A DNA stretch of 64,000 nt from Oryzias latipes (Eukaryota; Chordata; Actinopteri; Beloniformes; Adrianichthyidae). Numbering within the stretch: the stretch's first letter is position 1; the number at the start of each line of letters is the position of its first letter. A model generated the notes under the pieces. It made no database searches and was not told the DNA's origin. It saw only the letters and a program-made list of their open reading frames with translations. The stretch covers positions 25,448,299 through 25,512,298 of the forward strand of contig NC_019875.2 in assembly GCF_002234675.1 (NCBI RefSeq), in the 5' to 3' direction. A program made the position numbers and the translations under genes. Positions 1 to 53,319 of the stretch are shown here, one piece after another.

Positions 1-2753
1 AGGAGAATTCAAAATGAGGAAATCTTGTTAACCTCAGCTTTGCTGCCTGTCGGGAGCACTCCACTGTTTTCTGGAAAAAGAAGTTTACATATGCATGAAG
101 GTGTTTTTTCTTTTTACAATTTAATTCAGGGTTTTACTGCATTTGCAAAATGTAAAAGTGGAGACGCTCTGACCTGAGAGCTGAAGGAAAACCTCCTGTC
201 ACAAAAACTCCAGGATTTCTCAGAGATGTCTTAAATACTCTCCTCTCCAATAACTAGATTGTTACACAGCATCTGTCTTAAGTTCTTAAGTTCAAACAGT
301 CAGATCAGTTCTGTTTTTCCTGCTTTCAGAAGCTGTCGCATCCACACTCTCCTCCTGTTCTCCATCATAACACGAGCTTTAGATCTCACCCATGGAGAGA
401 GTGCTTTGCAAAACACAGACGTGCCTGGCTGTAAGCTGCTGAGCTCTGAGCCCTGAAGCCTTTTATCTCCTCCTGGCATTCTGCCCTGAGGATATTTGAG
501 AGCAGGGATGGACAACTGCATCCACTGGAGGAGTCAGCTTGGAGAATCTTCTTCAGGCTGAAGGAAATCTGAGCTGATTCATCTTTTTTATTTATTTTTT
601 GCGTTTTGAAGTCCGTGAAATCAGATGATGGATTATTTGGAAGATAATAATTTCCTGCCTTTTTTGTTGCTGTAGTTGCACATATTGAGAATAGTGTAGT
701 GTGTGCTTTGGAGCCACAAGGGGACACTGTTAGACACAATTTAAGAGCCTCCCCTCCTCACTGAATATCTTCATTCAGTAGAGGGATTAATAATTTCTGA
801 GATGTGCAATTTATAACCCCTTTTGTGGGAAATGGATAGATTTGAGCAGGAAGTTTTTAAGGAAGTAAAGTTGGTTTAAAATGCGGGGTGTGCAGATCTG
901 ATGGACTTCCTAATGAAGGGTAAAACCGGACCAGGCCTCCTCCTGGTAATCTGCTTTGATCTCTCAATCTCCCTTGTGATCTCCAGCGCTGGGAAAGCCT
1001 CTTCTACACCTTGTATCCCCAAAAGTAAAGGAGGGAAAGAAAGCCCCCCCCCCCCCATCACTGCCCATCTTCCTGACTTCACACCCACACTGGACTCTCT
1101 TTTGAAAGTGCAGGACTTGATTTAAAATTCCTCTTCAGAGCATGTCACGCATTTTATATGCACGGTGAGCGGGGAGATATGGGGGAGGGATTGGGGGTGG
1201 GAGGTGGGGGCCTTCAGTCCAAATGAACTTCCCCTCACTGTTGGCCTCCTCGGGGATGTAGCTGCACACCACAAGCCCGCTCCTCACTCCTCAATTTCTT
1301 GCACCCACTCAGCTCCTCCAACATTAGTTTTACTGCATCATGCCTTGTGCAAATTCCACGGAGCAGCGAGAGGGCTGCAGCCTTTGAAGACTAGTGTGAT
1401 CAGAGAAAAAGGCAGGGGGTGTACAAAACCTGGCCGCAGGGCATTTGGGGTTTTTTTTTTTTCTTTGCACTTGTGTTTAGCAGCGAGGCTGACAAGTGCG
1501 GCGTTTGGGGACAGGCTTTGAAGTCTGGTGGGGCGCGGCTCGTGCCTGTGCACCACCATCCTTCACGAGAAGACTGTCACTTTGACACACAATCAGGCTC
1601 ACACAAGTGTGATGGATAACATATAATCAAAGGAACACAGTTGATCCCCTCCTCATCACCTAAACATCTGCTATTCTCTTTCAGCCTCGCTCTCAAGGAG
1701 GAAAAACACAACAGAAAGAGCACACAGCATCAACTTGTATCTGATTAGCTCAAGAAGTCTGGTTTATTAGGAACAAATATGATCCTGCTAGCTTATTGGC
1801 AGTAAACAACATAACACAGTACACTTTTTTAAGTGCTACGGGGTTTGCGATTATGGACATAAAAACAGTAGGCTACAGCAACAAGAGTGCTACATTCACA
1901 TATGCACAGAGAATATATCAAAATTACAGTATATTGCTGTTAAGCTGTTCCTATTCCTGCCTCTGCTTTTTCACACACATCACTACACTCCAAGAGCTGT
2001 TTTCTTATAAGAATTGTGTTTATAGTGAGGATTGAGACGAGTCTGACAGCTTTTTACAAAGACCAAAGTGAATGTGATATAGTAGGACAACACAAACACA
2101 AAACAACCTCTCCAAGCTTGAAGTGTTTTTCATGAAGCTACTGCTAAATTACAGATCGGTTTACTTTGGTTTCCAGCTTTCTATAGGTCTGTACTGTGAA
2201 GTCGTGGCAGTTGAAGCTGTGGGTTAAATTGACAGTATAGCAGCCATAAGCCAATATTAACACAAAACACAAAAATTTATTATCTCAACATCGCTACTAT
2301 AGCAGCCAGGAAATAACCGAGTTACAGTGTGATTTAATAGATAAAAAAGAACGAGAAAATTAAAAAGGCTGAATTTAATGAAAGCACTGTTAAATCTCTG
2401 TGATCTTGGTACCTCGTAATAAATAGGAAAGTCAGCTTTATTGATGTTACTTTTTCCTCTTCTAGTCTGTTATAAATATGAGTATATGCTGTGAATGTCT
2501 GTTGCATTTTAAACTGTCTTCCATCCATGCAGCAAAAAAAAAAAAAAAAAAAACAAAGTTTGAGAGTTTCTTAGAAATAAAGTCAGCTCTACATAGACAA
2601 CTAACTTTTACAATGAAATATTTTGGAGCATGTACGTGCTTCCAAATTTTTCCATCAGCCTGTAACACAAGACAAACATCAATAAAACAGGATGGGAGGA
2701 ACAAATCAATGGCTGGATGCATCTGCAGACAGGGGAGGAGAGTGTACACTCGC

Positions 2754-3127
2754 ACACTCTTCAAGGATGATCTGTGGAGAAAACGCCGAAGCTGCATGTT
2801 TTACATGAGGAAACGCAGACATCTCAGGTTCCAGCGCGCCGGACTCTACCTTCAGTCCTGCTTCTGTGCAGTCCGCTCGGTCACATCCGCCCACGTCTGG
2901 TTCTCCACTGAGTCTTTGTGGGGCCAGGCCAACACATGTTGGCAGGGTAACCCCTAGAACCTGAATGAACCCAATCAATCTGACCACAAATGGACTCACG
3001 AAGAAGCAAAGAAGATGCAACAGGCTCGTTTTTTTCTTTTTTTAGCTCTGTGATTGTTAGACTTTTATATAAATTACCAATGTGGGTGGTCTGCTTTGCA
3101 TTTCATTGCCTGTGGAATGCACTCTTA
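2754..3127. repeat. Copy A of local 374-bp duplication
   Basis: Matches 3298-3671 at a constant offset of 544 bases; both copies carry the same long minus-strand open frame. Copy A lacks the 166-bp left part that adjoins copy B and recurs at 5714. It lies beyond the bcl2 stop codon. Confidence 0.9.
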
Positions 3128-3297
3128 GACTCTCAGAGTAAAAAGAAAAAAAACAACCCAGAAGGAAACACAGGGATCAGCAAAAAGAAATTTTTTATTC
3201 TTCACATGTGGTTGAGCAGGACAGACCCAGATATAAATATATTGATGCGACTGGGAGGCTGGCAGAGGGCCTCCGAGTGTGAAGAGTGTGCGAGTGT

Positions 3298-3671
3298 ACA
3301 CTCTTCAAGGATGATCTGTGGAGAAAACGCCGAAGCTGCATGTTTTACATGAGGAAACGCAGACATCTCAGGTTCCAGCGCGCCGGACTCTACCTTCAGT
3401 CCTGCTTCTGTGCAGTCCGCTCGGTCACATCCGCCCACGTCTGGTTCTCCACTGAGTCTTTGTGGGGCCAGGCCAACACATGTTGGCAGGGTAACCCCTA
3501 GAACCTGAATGAACCCAATCAATCTGACCACAAATGGACTCACGAAGAAGCAAAGAAGATGCAACAGGCTCGTTTTTTTCTTTTTTTAGCTCTGTGATTG
3601 TTAGACTTTTATATAAATTACCAATGTGGGTGGTCTGCTTTGCATTTCATTGCCTGTGGAATGCACTCTTA
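3298..3671. repeat. Copy B of local 374-bp duplication
   Basis: Same sequence as 2754-3127. Together with the preceding 166 bases (3132-3297) it forms the longest version of the unit, so 3132-3671 is the likely source of both copy A and the partial copy at 5714-5950. Confidence 0.9.
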
Positions 3672-40343: not shown

Positions 40344-48375
<8,032 letters not shown>

Positions 48376-48640
48376 AACAGGGCAAGTCACTTGACCCAAA
48401 ACCGTAACAAATGTAACCCCGCCGTGAATAAACTACTTATAAACACCACTATTTAGAAATTGGCTCCGAAATACAACGGTCAATCGCCGTCGTTAGCGAA
48501 CTTGTTTTCTTTCTTTAGGTCGCTGTTCTAGGAAGCAACTTCCGCATTGAAAAGTCGACACTTACGTGAGGGGAATGTTGTGACGTAACGACGTCGCTCG
48601 CTCGAGCTCAAAACAACAAACTGGCTTGATTTCAAAATAA
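48376..48640 (-). promoter_or_regulatory. vps4b promoter region
   Basis: CpG-containing DNA upstream of the ATG with no TATA box. It includes an ETS-like AACTTCCGC near 48537 and a CRE-like TGACGTAA at 48581-48588, close to CGACGTCG. A housekeeping-type promoter is inferred. Confidence 0.45.
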
Positions 48641-48994
48641 AACGCTTGTTTCACATAATTTTGGTTTTTCTTCTCAAAAGTAATTTCTAAAACATTTTAA
48701 CTACACGGACTGTTTTAAAAAACAAGATTATAACTTCACGATCATTTTATTTTGGATTTCAATTAAAAATAAATACGTTTTAAATTAGCATGCTTGGTAA
48801 CGTCAATTTAATTATTTTATAGGCCATAAAAGTGTGTTGGGCCCTAATTTTTTTTCCATTTGCCTTTAAATGTTAGAAAAAAAATAAATGTAGATGCTAA
48901 AATATTTATGTTGCTACTACTTATCACAGGTAAAAACGTTCAAAGTTTTAGAGCAAGTATTCTATCCATCTTCAGAACCAGCTGTACCCCTTTT

Positions 48995-49285
48995 GGGGTC
49001 ATGGGGTTGCTGGAGCCTTTCCCACATAACCGTTGGACAAAGGCGAGGTACAACCTGGACTAGTGTGTTACAGGGCCACACACTCACACACACACACAAT
49101 CTCACCTAAGGGGGCAAGTTAGAGACACTAATTAACATTCAAGGCATGTGTTTGGACTGTGGGGGGAAGACAGAGTGCCCAGAGAAAACCCATGAACACA
49201 CGTGGAGAACATGCAAACCCCACACAGAAAGAACCAAACTGGAATTTGAACCAGGAGCCTTTTCACTGAGGCGAAAGCGCTAAAT
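48995..49285. repeat. L2-type LINE 3' region abutting the vps4-like fragment
   Basis: Ordered blocks GGGGTTGCTGGAGCC, GGGCCACACACTCACACA, CACCTAAGGGGGCAAGTTAG, TTTGGACTGTGGGGGG, GAGAAAACCC, GAACATGCAAACCCCACACAG and TTTGAACCAGGAGCC match the fish L2/Maui-type tail. It ends within about 60 bases of the third vps4-like exon. Confidence 0.78.
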
Positions 49286-49343
49286 CACCATACATAACAT
49301 GTTGAGAGTATGATCTCAATGACCAAATGTAATTTGTAGTGAC

Positions 49344-49444
49344 CTCTTTATTTGCCATGTACTCTTGTAGTTCCTCCACTCTGTCCAAATACAGTTTACA
49401 TTTATCTCTAATCTTCTGATTTCCATCTTTCCCTTGAGGTTCAC
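49344..49444 (-). CDS. vps4-like exon 3 (third MIT helix)
   Basis: 101 bases coding EPQGKDGNQKIRDKCKLYLD, then RVEELQEYMANKE, after the acceptor TGTTTTAG. Shorter than vps4b exon 3 (151 bp), lacking the basic linker. It is followed by GTCACT, a possible donor in phase 0. If not spliced, the frame goes on for 26 codons to a stop at 49263. An AATAAA lies inside the exon (49347-49352). Confidence 0.75.
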
Positions 49445-49641
49445 CTAAAACAGACAAACAGCAGGTCACTCATGGTAGGTCAAATGTTTGAGGTCAACAT
49501 TCAATACAGGTTTCTAAATAAACTCTTGCACATACAGGCAGGTCTCAGAGAAAGAATTAACAAATTATTATAAACTCCATAAGAAAATGATAGTGTGACA
49601 TTATTGTGAGCTTCATTCCATCTCCCACCACAGAGACGCAC

Positions 49642-49753
49642 GTTTCAATATATGGAGAAAATACTTGACGGCATGCTGGTAGGATCGAATGGCTTCCTCA
49701 TAATTTCCAGCCTGATCCTCTTCTGAAGCTTTCTGAGCAACAGCAATGGCCTT
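49642..49753 (-). CDS. vps4-like exon 2 (first two MIT helices)
   Basis: 112 bases coding [14 protein letters not shown], then [20 protein letters not shown] and ILK plus one base, between TTTTAG and GTGCGT. Same length and exit phase as vps4b exon 2. The stretch AGNYEEA..YQHAV.YFLH resembles VPS4B of other vertebrates closely. Confidence 0.8.
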
Positions 49754-50084
49754 CTAAAATGAAAAAAAAAGAAGAAATATATTGACTAAAATTTGTCAAA
49801 ACTCTACTATTTAAGCATCTTATTACACAACTTTATTAAAGGATTTCAAAATATAAGTCACTAAAGTGTTAAGCTACTTTATTACCACCATTTTTGTCTG
49901 TCACTAATATTTTTTGGCATAATTACTTTCTCAAATAACAGGATTGGTGTCTAACATCTGTTTGGTGGCAACATATTTGGAATCAGTTACAATTTTGACT
50001 ACCGGTAAATTTAGGTGATGTGACTTTATGAGGACAAACTTTCAATCAATTCTAAATTATTTAATTCTAGTAAATGTATCTTTA

Positions 50085-50160
50085 ATATATATATATATAT
50101 ATATATATAACATATAGATATATAGATATAGAGATATATAGGCATATATTATATATCTCT
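50085..50160. repeat. (TA)n / (GATA)-like microsatellite
   Basis: An uninterrupted TA run followed by TAGATATA-type variants. Confidence 0.9.
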
Positions 50161-50504
50161 TACAATACGCCATAATTCTGTGCAATATTTGCATTTCTAT
50201 CTTAGTGAGTTTCAACTTGTAAGATGCACAGGATTTGATTTCCAGTAACTTCACATTTTAACCTACAATGTAATAACAGACACAGGCCCCTATAAAAAAT
50301 CAGAGCAGAGAACAAAAGACAACAGTTGTACATTCGATTATAATCAGCATGTTGCTGTCAACTTTCTCTTCTTGGACTATGAATGTCTGGTAAAGTTTGA
50401 GGTTCAGTGTAGAGCTCTCCAAAGAAGTGGAAACAAAAGTCATGATTTTTTACAGTAATCTACCCAAAACAGAACAAAAAAATAAAGTAAAATTTGTAAA
50501 GTGT

Positions 50505-50566
50505 CAATTTTCCAAAAATCAGGCACCAATTTACAAATTGGTGCCTGATTTTACTTTGGAAAATTG
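50505..50566. repeat. 62-base near-perfect hairpin
   Basis: ATCAGGCACCAATTT and AAATTGGTGCCTGAT pair around a 2-base loop, and the outer arms CAATTTTCCAAA and TTTGGAAAATTG pair as well, separated only by a small bulge. A palindromic mini-element or cruciform-forming site. Confidence 0.8.
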
Positions 50567-51410
50567 TAATAACATTTTCTGATGACAATTAACATGCACT
50601 CTATTTTTGACATTTAACCTGTGATATGTACAGGTTTTTGTTTTTTTTAATTAGATAGTGTTTTCTAATCAGAAGACACAACCCAGAATGTGATAATTAT
50701 GTAAACAATAAGTAAAATAGTAAACATAAAAGGGTGGGATTTTATAACTTTGCATCCTCCCACTTTTGTCCAAGCAATTAATTAAACTATTTTGACAAAC
50801 TTTATTTTTAATGTATTCAGTGTGTCGTGTATTTTTTGTGCAGGTGCAAATATGTGTATTTATGATTAAGAGCAATGTTACTGACATTATTTACATGCAC
50901 ATGTTTGTACAGTGTCTTTTTTAATTTTTGGATTTTCCAATCAAGTCACAATTATTTATCCAGAGCTTAACATAACAATGTACTGATATGTTCATAGATC
51001 ATCAGTATATCAGGATATACCTCTTGTGTTTGTCATCCTTTGTACGTTTTGTTTTGATAGCTTGAAATAAACCAATTCCAATTCCAGTCTCCAAATACAA
51101 AATATGTTATCATTAATAAGGGTCCAGTTTTCTACTTAAGCAGTTACTTGATTTGTGAGTCAAATGCAATCAGTGCAGTGACTGAAGCAAACCTTTATTT
51201 CCTGCTTATAACCTCCTAATTATCAGAAATCAGTTGTATTCATAAACAGCTTAGTGGTACACAAAACACCTGATTATACTTCCGCTTACAAGATAACCTA
51301 ATAACCACATTTACATGAAAATGCTAAAAGAATCACAAAGGCACACCAAACAGTAAAGTCTTGCTCAGGATCCAGACTCTGATCAAGCAGCTCCCAGTAA
51401 ATCAGCCTAC

Positions 51411-51431
51411 CTGCAGATTAGTTGGCTCCAT
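51411..51431 (-). CDS. vps4-like exon 1 (MEPTNLQ)
   Basis: The minus strand reads ATGGAGCCAACTAATCTGCAG then GTAGGC. It is 21 bases long and ends NLQ in phase 0, like vps4b exon 1 (MANNNLQ). The identical length, phase and NLQ ending support it despite its small size. The base at -3 is T, a weak start context. Confidence 0.65.
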
Positions 51432-52200
51432 TCAGAGTCCTATCTGTAAGAAAAGCACACCTGACACAACCCCTGAACCTCGCAATTCTTGTTACATTTT
51501 CTGCGTTGAATGGTCACAGTACAGGTTTAGTTCCTGTTTCCTTATCTCTGTGTAGCACTGCCTAGAAACCAGCCAGTCCACTGACAGGGCTGGGATTCTG
51601 AAACCCTCCTGCCATTGAGTCATCGGCCAGTTACACAACAACTAACTATTGCAGTGCTTGTTGTAAACACCAGCTGTGATGAGTGTTTCCTGTGTTTTTT
51701 TAAGGTTAATTTAATATAGAGAATTTATTTAAAAATATTACATGTATATACAACTTTTCTACAAAGGAAGTAAACCGTAGAAAATAAAGAGTATTTATGT
51801 GTAGTCCACACTACAAAGTTGTCCACTAGAGGGCGCCACAAGCTAATTGTGAAAATTCAGTAGGTACTTCAGTAAAATACATTTTTTTAGAAAAACATAA
51901 ACTTTGAGTCAAGTTAAAGCCTTCAGCTCAATGTATATCTAAATAATATATACATTTAATCTTTAAAAAAATGTCTTTGCTTTTTTTTTTTAAATCAAAC
52001 CTGATTCCACATTTAAAATCATTTTATCAGATGATGTTGCTTTGGAAATTGATGTAAATTTGCCTCTATAGTCTACAAAAAAGTACATCTAACCGTCTGT
52101 TATGTTATCATAATCTACAAAGATTATAAGAAAAAAAGTTTTGGGTGGGATGAACGGTCAAACACAGGGTAAAGTGTGGTGGCAGACCTTTAGCCCCACT
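51432..52200. other. Gap between the vps4-like locus and the laminin promoter
   Basis: No gene seen. The notable feature is a CTCF core at 51823-51836. Otherwise AT-rich. Confidence 0.5.
51823..51836 (+). promoter_or_regulatory. CTCF core motif
   Basis: CCACTAGAGGGCGC fits the CTCF core consensus CCASYAGRKGGCRS at every position. It sits between two loci of opposite strand, a usual place for an insulator. Occupancy is not shown by sequence. Confidence 0.6.
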
Positions 52201-52493
52201 CAGTCACGGCGCATTAGAGCCACGCTCAGACCTTCAGCAGTCTGACACCTGAGAGCTCCGGGGCACGGCGCGGGCGCGCAGGACAGTTTGGAGCGCACCA
52301 ACCCAGCGCGGGTAGTTTGGTGGATATGCGGCGCACAGAAGAAGCAGAAGCAGAAGATTCTCTGAAGTTTGACCTGAGATCAGCGGAGCCAACACGTGCG
52401 TAAAACTCTTTGCGCCTTTCTGCGTTTTCCATGGAGAGCCGCACATGACAGGAGCAGCTCCCGCTCAGCAGCATCTACAGGGATCTGTGAAAC
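52200..52493 (+). promoter_or_regulatory. Laminin alpha 5' UTR / promoter
   Basis: GC-rich block (CACGGCGCGGGCGCGC near 52263) just upstream of the laminin ATG, in contrast to AT-rich flanks. The transcription start is not determined. Confidence 0.45.
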
Positions 52494-53319
52494 ATGGCGA
52501 GGGGAACCGTGGGAGCTCACTTGCTCGCGGTGTTCTTAACTTCTTGGGCGACAGTTTTAAGGGACGCAGGTGGGCAAGAACCTTTTAACGACCTGACCGG
52601 GTTCAGCCTGAACCCGCCTTACTTCAACCTCGCCGAGGGCATCAAGATTTCTGCCTCAGCAACCTGCGGCCAAGATGAGGCTGGCGCTCCGAGGCAGGAT
52701 TTATACTGTAAGCTCGTCGGAGGACCAAATTATGGACTTTCTAATCAACATATTCAGGTGAGAAATGAAGGTCATTGCAATTTGGCTGTTACGTGCATTC
52801 ATTAGTTAGTAAACAGGTGATTACCAACAGAAATCCAATGGATTCTTTTATTTTTTGTGGAAATAAAAGTACATTCGTTGAGAAAAACAAAGAAATTGTC
52901 TACAACATATGTGACTGCCAGGATATGTTTATTCTTTTGGAGTGGATTTCCACATTTTCCAAAGGAAATGTCCATCACCAGTGACCCCACTTCCTTAGGA
53001 GTCCTCATTAAGATGTTCTGGATGACTGCAACAAGTGAAAAAGCTTTCTCACACATAGATTCTTAACTAAAGATGTTGATTACCCCCCCTTCTATTATTA
53101 AAGAGTTTCCAATGCATGGAGGTGTGTTCTTTCTTTAATTTTTTTTAATGATTTGACCCCATTTAGGGTCAGTTCTGTGACCACTGCAACTCGGCTGATC
53201 CAAGCAAAGCTCACCCAGCGACCAATGCCATAGATGGGACAGAGCGGTGGTGGCAGAGCCCTCCTCTCTCCAGAGGATCGGGCTACAATGAGGTGAATGT
53301 TACCCTGGACCTTGGACAG
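52494..53319 (+). CDS. lama3: Laminin alpha chain, first two coding exons (partial gene)
   Basis: Secreted basement-membrane chain. Exons 52494-52757 (88 codons) and 53167-53319 (51 codons) join in phase 0, donors GTGAGA and GTAAGA. Residues 1 to about 25 form a signal peptide (hydrophobic [13 protein letters not shown]). The rest is the start of the laminin N-terminal (domain VI) module: [74 protein letters not shown]. GQFCDxCNS is like LAMA3, while [18 protein letters not shown] and [12 protein letters not shown] are like LAMA5. LAMA3 is favoured because human LAMA3 is also on chromosome 18, but lama5 remains possible. The gene continues past the right edge; exon 3 was not found. Confidence 0.85.
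53167..53319 (+). CDS. lama3: Laminin alpha exon 2 (domain VI)
   Basis: 51 codons from GQFCDHCNS to TLDLGQ, acceptor TTTAG. It holds the two cysteines of the domain and the WWQSPP motif, which is highly conserved among laminin and netrin N-terminal domains. Confidence 0.85.

Follow-up and report, generated by a model that had tools for sequence, protein, structure and literature searches.

A VPS4-type MIT domain without an ATPase of its own, encoded at a second vps4-like locus upstream of vps4b in Oryzias latipes

Among the proteins that carry an MIT domain without an ATPase is MITD1, which has a second, C-terminal domain. Another ESCRT-related product, retroCHMP3, is reportedly a truncated ESCRT-III retrocopy of a CHMP that blocks virus budding, an activity said to have been tested. 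A natural Vps4 cut down to its MIT domain occurs in bean, where bc-2[Robust] is an ordinary Vps4 gene carrying a frameshift, an allele that its authors describe as non-functional (PMC8710759). For the VPS4 enzymes themselves, excerpts of the published reports state that their MIT domains bind the tails of CHMP1, CHMP2 and IST1 (PMC9477494), that replacement of Leu64 of VPS4A with aspartate abolishes MIM1 binding and that the role of Val13 is in MIM2 binding (PMC11218997), and that an inactive VPS4 is dominant negative (PMC10748027).

The locus described here, which we call the MIT copy, resembles VPS4B in its MIT sequence and in the lengths and phases of its first two exons, and it adjoins vps4b, but it is without the VPS4 linker, the AAA ATPase and the Vps4_C domain. 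It shares with MITD1 and other non-ATPase MIT proteins an MIT domain without an ATPase, but the matches are weak (E 2e-5 and 2e-4) and MITD1 belongs to a different gene family. Like retroCHMP3, it is a shortened copy of an ESCRT gene and retains an open frame; unlike retroCHMP3, it appears to be a spliced remnant and is known from its sequence. The bean allele provides the likeness of a Vps4 reduced to its MIT domain, but that is an allele of an ordinary Vps4 gene. Among the literature matches listed for VPS4 in fish, its paralogues, truncated forms and MIT competition, we found no published description of the locus.

Exons and position of the MIT copy

The window is the whole stretch of DNA analysed, 64 kb of C17 (C17:25448299-25512298), and the genome searched comprised 734 Mb in 25 contigs. 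Three minus-strand exons upstream of vps4b form the diverged vps4-like locus, which sits on the vps4b strand between the start of vps4b and that of a plus-strand gene, beginning near 52494, that carries a laminin N-terminal domain. The features concerned are as follows.

52150..52700, plus strand: start region, rich in CpG, of the divergently oriented laminin gene, whose ATG is near 52494
51443..51457, minus strand: sequence resembling a strong 3' splice site, tgcttttcttacag|a, located 12 nt upstream of the ATG of the MIT copy
51411..51431, minus strand: exon 1' of the MIT copy, 21 nt, MEPTNLQ, ending CAG|gtaggc
49642..49753, minus strand: exon 2' of the MIT copy, 112 nt, MIT helices 1-2
49344..49444, minus strand: part of exon 3' with homology to exon 3 of vps4b; it encodes MIT helix 3 and runs to codon 78
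49263..49343, minus strand: open continuation past codon 78, 26 residues and TGA
48961..49283, minus strand: old high-copy SINE-type repeat directly past exon 3', 60 nt beyond codon 78
40344..48375, minus strand: intact vps4b of C17, with 11 coding exons and 437 aa

A single open frame runs across the three exons to a TGA at 49263, both introns are GT-AG, and an in-frame TGA lies immediately 5' of the ATG. The initial annotation had described exons of 21 and 112 bp phased like exons 1 and 2 of vps4b, and the lengths and phases of exons 1' and 2' are indeed equal to those of their counterparts. The continuation past codon 78 is without similarity to VPS4 linkers, and its last six or so codons, with the stop, fall inside the SINE.

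Homology, paralogues and age

The MIT copy is identical to vps4b at 44 of 78 residues, with differences at codon positions 1, 2 and 3 numbering 27, 17 and 50 of 78; the earlier description of exons far diverged from vps4b yet intact in frame and splice sites was thus borne out. The likeness extends to all three exons: 69 of 112 nt are identical in exon 2' and 58 of the first 101 nt in exon 3', levels reached by none of 5000 shuffles in either case, and 13 of 21 nt in exon 1' (shuffle p 0.0004), so that a chance resemblance was ruled out by the shuffles. The Pfam MIT domain (PF04212) was matched along its whole profile (1-66 of 66) at 81.2 bits, against a cut-off of 30 and a score of 81.8 for vps4b, and the alignment extends to residue 72. 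In pairwise comparisons the copy resembles VPS4B more than VPS4A: its nearest PDB matches are VPS4B MIT domains, it scores 94.9 bits to human VPS4B compared with 80.5 bits to human VPS4A, and it has Ala13, Gln48, Gly49 and Gln54 in common with human VPS4B. It is identical to the human VPS4B domain at 47 of 75 positions, compared with 67 of 75 for vps4b of C17. The leucine of the MIM1 groove (Leu64 of VPS4A) is retained, and alanine occupies position 13, the MIM2 site, as it does in VPS4B.

The likeness to vps4b stops at the MIT boundary, and the KP(V/F)KE linker motif present in the three working VPS4 genes is missing. The AAA domain (PF00004) was not matched among the 14 families listed, and the Vps4_C oligomerisation domain was absent by Pfam. 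A search of the 64-kb window with vps4b gave 18 rows – 10 from vps4b itself, two from exons of the MIT copy and six at E >= 2.9 – and hence no ATPase exons outside vps4b. Genome-wide, three of 77 rows reached the VPS4 C-terminus (about 400-437), one each in C17, C4 and C6, and the eight matches of the MIT copy at E up to 1 comprised two to itself and six in the VPS4 genes of these contigs. Relocation of its ATPase exons was therefore discarded, none being found in the window or elsewhere in the genome, and the proposal of MIT exons without an ATPase was upheld. The MIT copy is a second, diverged vps4-like locus encoding a full VPS4-type MIT domain without an ATPase of its own.

The genome holds three full-length VPS4 genes, on C17, C4 and C6. 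By sequence, the C6 gene is vps4a (74 of 78 residues identical to human VPS4A) and the C4 gene is a second vps4b, which, with that of C17, we take to be a pair of duplicates from the teleost genome duplication. The C4 gene (C4:3224000-3233999) is full-length and has a GC3 of 0.68 in exons 1-3, compared with 0.49 in C17; no relic of the MIT copy was found in the 3.4 kb examined upstream of it. We know of no full-length third VPS4 paralogue in other fish. In codon models, the placement of the MIT copy outside the C17/C4 pair (lnL -838.0 to -838.7) was preferred over that as sister of C17 (-841.7) or of C4 (-841.3); the placements tried spread over no more than 3.7 lnL, and those basal to the B class and with the A class are one unrooted tree, among the better ones. 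Because the placement outside the pair fits best, the copy is probably old and likely predates the C17/C4 split, although a fast branch could mimic such a placement. A recent duplication was rejected, because only the exons resemble vps4b, with no similarity in the linker or in six stretches taken from the 5' flank and the intron edges. No further copy of the unit 49284-51500 was found among the best 40 of 249 candidates, whose 47 rows represent the locus itself, the intron 1 repeats and AT-rich sequence, and collections of viral and prokaryote sequences held no relative, as expected. In rainbow trout, two VPS4A and four VPS4B genes are reported, and a third VPS4 type is unmentioned, in the excerpt of the source (PMC12603132); two vps4b genes together with the salmonid duplication would explain this count.

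Splice sites, start region and selection

Splice scores were calculated from a position matrix of splice sites. The donor of exon 1' scored 9.8, a value equalled by 0.2% of GT sites, and the acceptor-like site at 51443..51457 scored 10.2, above all 10 vps4b acceptors (the highest being 10.0) and reached by 0.55% of 8049 AG sites, which suggests that a 5'UTR exon may lie further upstream. In contrast, the donor of exon 2' (AAC|gtgcgt) scored 4.7, below all 10 vps4b donors (6.3-12.6) and below its counterparts in the C4 gene (7.2) and the C6 gene (7.3). The initial annotation had also ended the third exon at 49344. The homology of this exon to vps4b stands, but the GT at 49344 scored 4.4, again below all 10 vps4b donors and matched by 8.8% of the 7098 GT sites on both strands of the window, and the frame continues to 49263; the position is the end of homology and no convincing exon end. 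A GT at 49294 (score 3.1) would make a third exon of 151 nt, as in vps4b, and such an exon is possible, but it was set aside in view of a GT at about one position in 18 and the shorter exon 3 of the C4 gene.

The start region (-250 to +250) of the MIT copy has a CpG observed/expected ratio of 0.19, compared with 1.24, 1.00 and 1.00 for the C17, C4 and C6 genes, and the closest CpG-rich region upstream is the laminin start, 0.7-1.3 kb off. The base at -3 of the ATG, judged by the Kozak rule, is T. In order to calibrate the loss of CpG, we used the flanking SINE, for which 40 relatives were scored out of 3173 first-look candidates; besides the locus itself, two of the 40 matches listed start further upstream (49301 and 49294). 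The SINE of the locus differs from the family consensus by 18% at non-CpG sites (Jukes–Cantor 0.21), more than any of the 29 copies closest to it with which it was compared (30 copies in all). Since these 29 copies, with a mean divergence of 13%, have kept 63 of 209 CpGs, the loss of a CpG start, if one was once present, would take about 0.2 substitutions per site, as a rough clock. Two other clocks were discarded: the age of the SINE does not date the truncation, since the repeat may already have been present, within intron 3 or further downstream, when the deletion took place, and lost linker similarity is weak evidence because the working genes also match poorly there in their DNA (shuffles scoring as high: C17 vps4b with C6 vps4a, 86/1000; C4 vps4b with C6 vps4a, 172/1000; C17 with C4 vps4b, 7/1000).

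The pairwise omega of the MIT copy and vps4b was 0.08, with 0.25 rejected (2dlnL 4.1), a figure to which the branches of both genes contribute. When the outgroups were proteins and no clock was applied, the branch of the copy was inseparable and an omega of 1 was allowed on a short copy branch; this test can shift silent change onto the vps4b branch, and the DNA of the C4 and C6 genes was added for that reason. The omega of the copy was then 0.13-0.15 against 0.05, still without a clock, and an omega of 1 was worse by 2dlnL 4.6 with the copy placed outside the pair and by 7.3 with it as sister of C17, while equality with the other branches was not rejected (1.8 and 1.9). With a clock, omega was 0.16-0.17, and both an omega of 1 (2dlnL 23) and equality with the other branches (17.6 or 10.7) were rejected. 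However, constraint followed by a neutral tail fitted equally well under the clock, with a best tail of 0.19-0.21 substitutions per site, and without it a tail of 0.05-0.2 had little or no cost in lnL (-839.04 and -838.93 for tails of 0.1-0.2, compared with -838.74 for a constant omega). The branch as a whole has thus been under purifying selection, but, because the tail models fit as well, its latest part may be unconstrained. The earlier preference for selection rather than a pseudogene is sustained in so far as selection acted during much of the history of the locus, but the preference itself does not follow, since constraint that gave way to neutral drift over as much as about 0.2 substitutions per site fits the same data.

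The 27 amino acid changes of the MIT copy from the inferred ancestor have a mean BLOSUM score of 0.00, compared with -0.21 for random missense changes and 0.78-0.94 for four pairs of VPS4 MIT domains from working vertebrate genes; five of the 27 are radical, where random change would give a share of 0.28. This mean is not decisive as evidence against function, because three working yeast–vertebrate pairs (-0.16 to 0.03) and the four changes of C17 vps4b (average -1.00) are also low. Scored with a VPS4-specific profile, the copy gave 94.6 bits, matched by 16 of 1000 random stop-free sequences changed to the same extent. The always-hydrophobic sites (3 of 25 changed; 269 of 1000 simulations as low), the invariant sites (7 of 28 changed; 95), the BLOSUM sum (137) and the loop share (66) were not significant. 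Overall, the changes are only weakly better than random.

Frame survival under neutral drift was simulated in 4000 runs from the present sequence, with indels at 10% of substitutions, a share equal to that measured in the 29 SINE copies (0.10). The ATG, frame and GT-AG sites were intact in 0.152, 0.049, 0.024, 0.003 and 0.001 of runs at 0.05, 0.08, 0.1, 0.15 and 0.2 substitutions per site, and in 0.000 at 0.3 or more. The intact frame is the best evidence for exons in use until recently or still, although the locus was picked for its open frame, and this low survival means that the death of the copy, if it occurred, should be younger than about 0.08 substitutions per site. The CpG loss suggests that the start region has been inactive for longer than this limit. 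Degeneration is suggested by the type of promoter, by one of the donors and by changes of near-random quality.

Competing readings and other features of the window

We tentatively prefer the reading, with a probability of about 0.45, that the MIT copy is the leftover of a once full-length VPS4B-class paralogue, lost recently enough to retain its frame. The data show a set of MIT exons with an open frame, for which no ATPase was found, long constrained overall and greatly diverged; we infer the once full-length state. The ancestor would have been a full-length VPS4 in tandem with vps4b, from which one deletion, running from the interior of exon 3 to just upstream of the nearby SINE, may have removed exons 4-11 together with the linker. 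Its CpG promoter would likewise have disappeared, and the MIT exons would since have been drifting or nearly so, their open frame being partly luck. If still transcribed, the locus might yield a free MIT domain of 78-104 residues that would bind ESCRT-III MIM1 tails as a weak VPS4 competitor, although present-day selection on such a product is not assumed.

This remnant reading is ranked slightly over that of a functioning gene whose product is a free VPS4-type MIT domain and which selection has maintained, its ATPase having been lost or never duplicated; we regard this as a tenable but doubtful alternative. Such a gene would use a non-CpG promoter, or the laminin CpG region spliced into the acceptor at 51443, and would tune or block VPS4 recruitment by occupying MIM1 tails. 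The intact frame and splice sites, with a neutral survival under 5% beyond 0.08 per site, speak for it, as do the rejection of neutrality over the whole branch, a Pfam score equal to that of vps4b, the strong acceptor ahead of the ATG, the retention of Leu64 and Ala13, and a similarity that stops at the MIT boundary; the missing CpG-rich start, the weak donor of exon 2' and the lack of a credible one for exon 3', the T at -3, the stop within the SINE, the near-random quality of the changes as a whole, and changes at core and invariant sites not clearly better than random speak against it. Because MIT domains bind ESCRT-III tails and inactive VPS4 is dominant negative, a free MIT domain from the copy could compete with VPS4; Leu64 is compatible with this but is not evidence of function. 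The wider proposition, that a vertebrate has kept by selection an MIT-only VPS4-type gene, or splices a tandem-MIT VPS4, as a competitor or retuned ESCRT-III receptor at least about as old as the teleost duplication, is a real possibility, though one that falls short of even odds.

The exons could also serve as alternative 5' exons of vps4b, joining it from 49344 (phase 0) to exon 2 for a tandem-MIT VPS4; a swapped MIT domain would result if 49294 (phase 2) were joined to exon 4, or exon 2' to exon 3. Their position directly upstream on the same strand and their want of 3' exons agree with this, each of the three junctions keeps an open reading frame, and read-through would be expected to skip vps4b exon 1, as it is a first exon. 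We nevertheless consider it improbable: all three donors are weak, an AATAAA at 48751 could terminate transcripts earlier, and the phases would fit one time in three by chance and are expected from common ancestry. Least probable by far is an old pseudogene unconstrained ever since the duplication, despite the relaxed omega, the absent CpG-rich start and the outcome of the test that used neither DNA outgroup nor clock; neutrality was rejected strongly with the clock and more weakly without it, and drift of 0.3 or more per site left no run intact. If the exons yield a selected protein, a vertebrate genome would contain a natural VPS4 competitor, and a medaka knockout could show whether a decoy MIT domain tunes ESCRT-III disassembly in virus budding, abscission and endosomal sorting. 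If the locus is instead a remnant, it is the trace of a third VPS4 gene now lost, and an example of how annotation can be misled by an intact frame.

Elsewhere in the window, the minus strand carries bcl2, recognised by its Bcl-2 domain, and a gene that we take to be kdsr from the gene order and a dehydrogenase-like frame. Open frames at 2706-3041 and 3202-3585 on the same strand have a stretch in common, pointing to a segment that may have been duplicated about 0.5 kb apart, and no tandem array was reported at a score of 200. Rfam and tRNA scans of 48300-53000 found nothing. Intron 1 of the MIT copy (about 50655-51086) contains a second repeat with many genomic relatives, mostly 68-81% identical. 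Intron 10 of vps4b (40845-42228) holds long nested inverted repeats, with arms of 155 nt that are 96% complementary and extra arms of 68, 68, 40 and 40 nt, and this element is probably a non-autonomous DNA transposon or a fold-back element.
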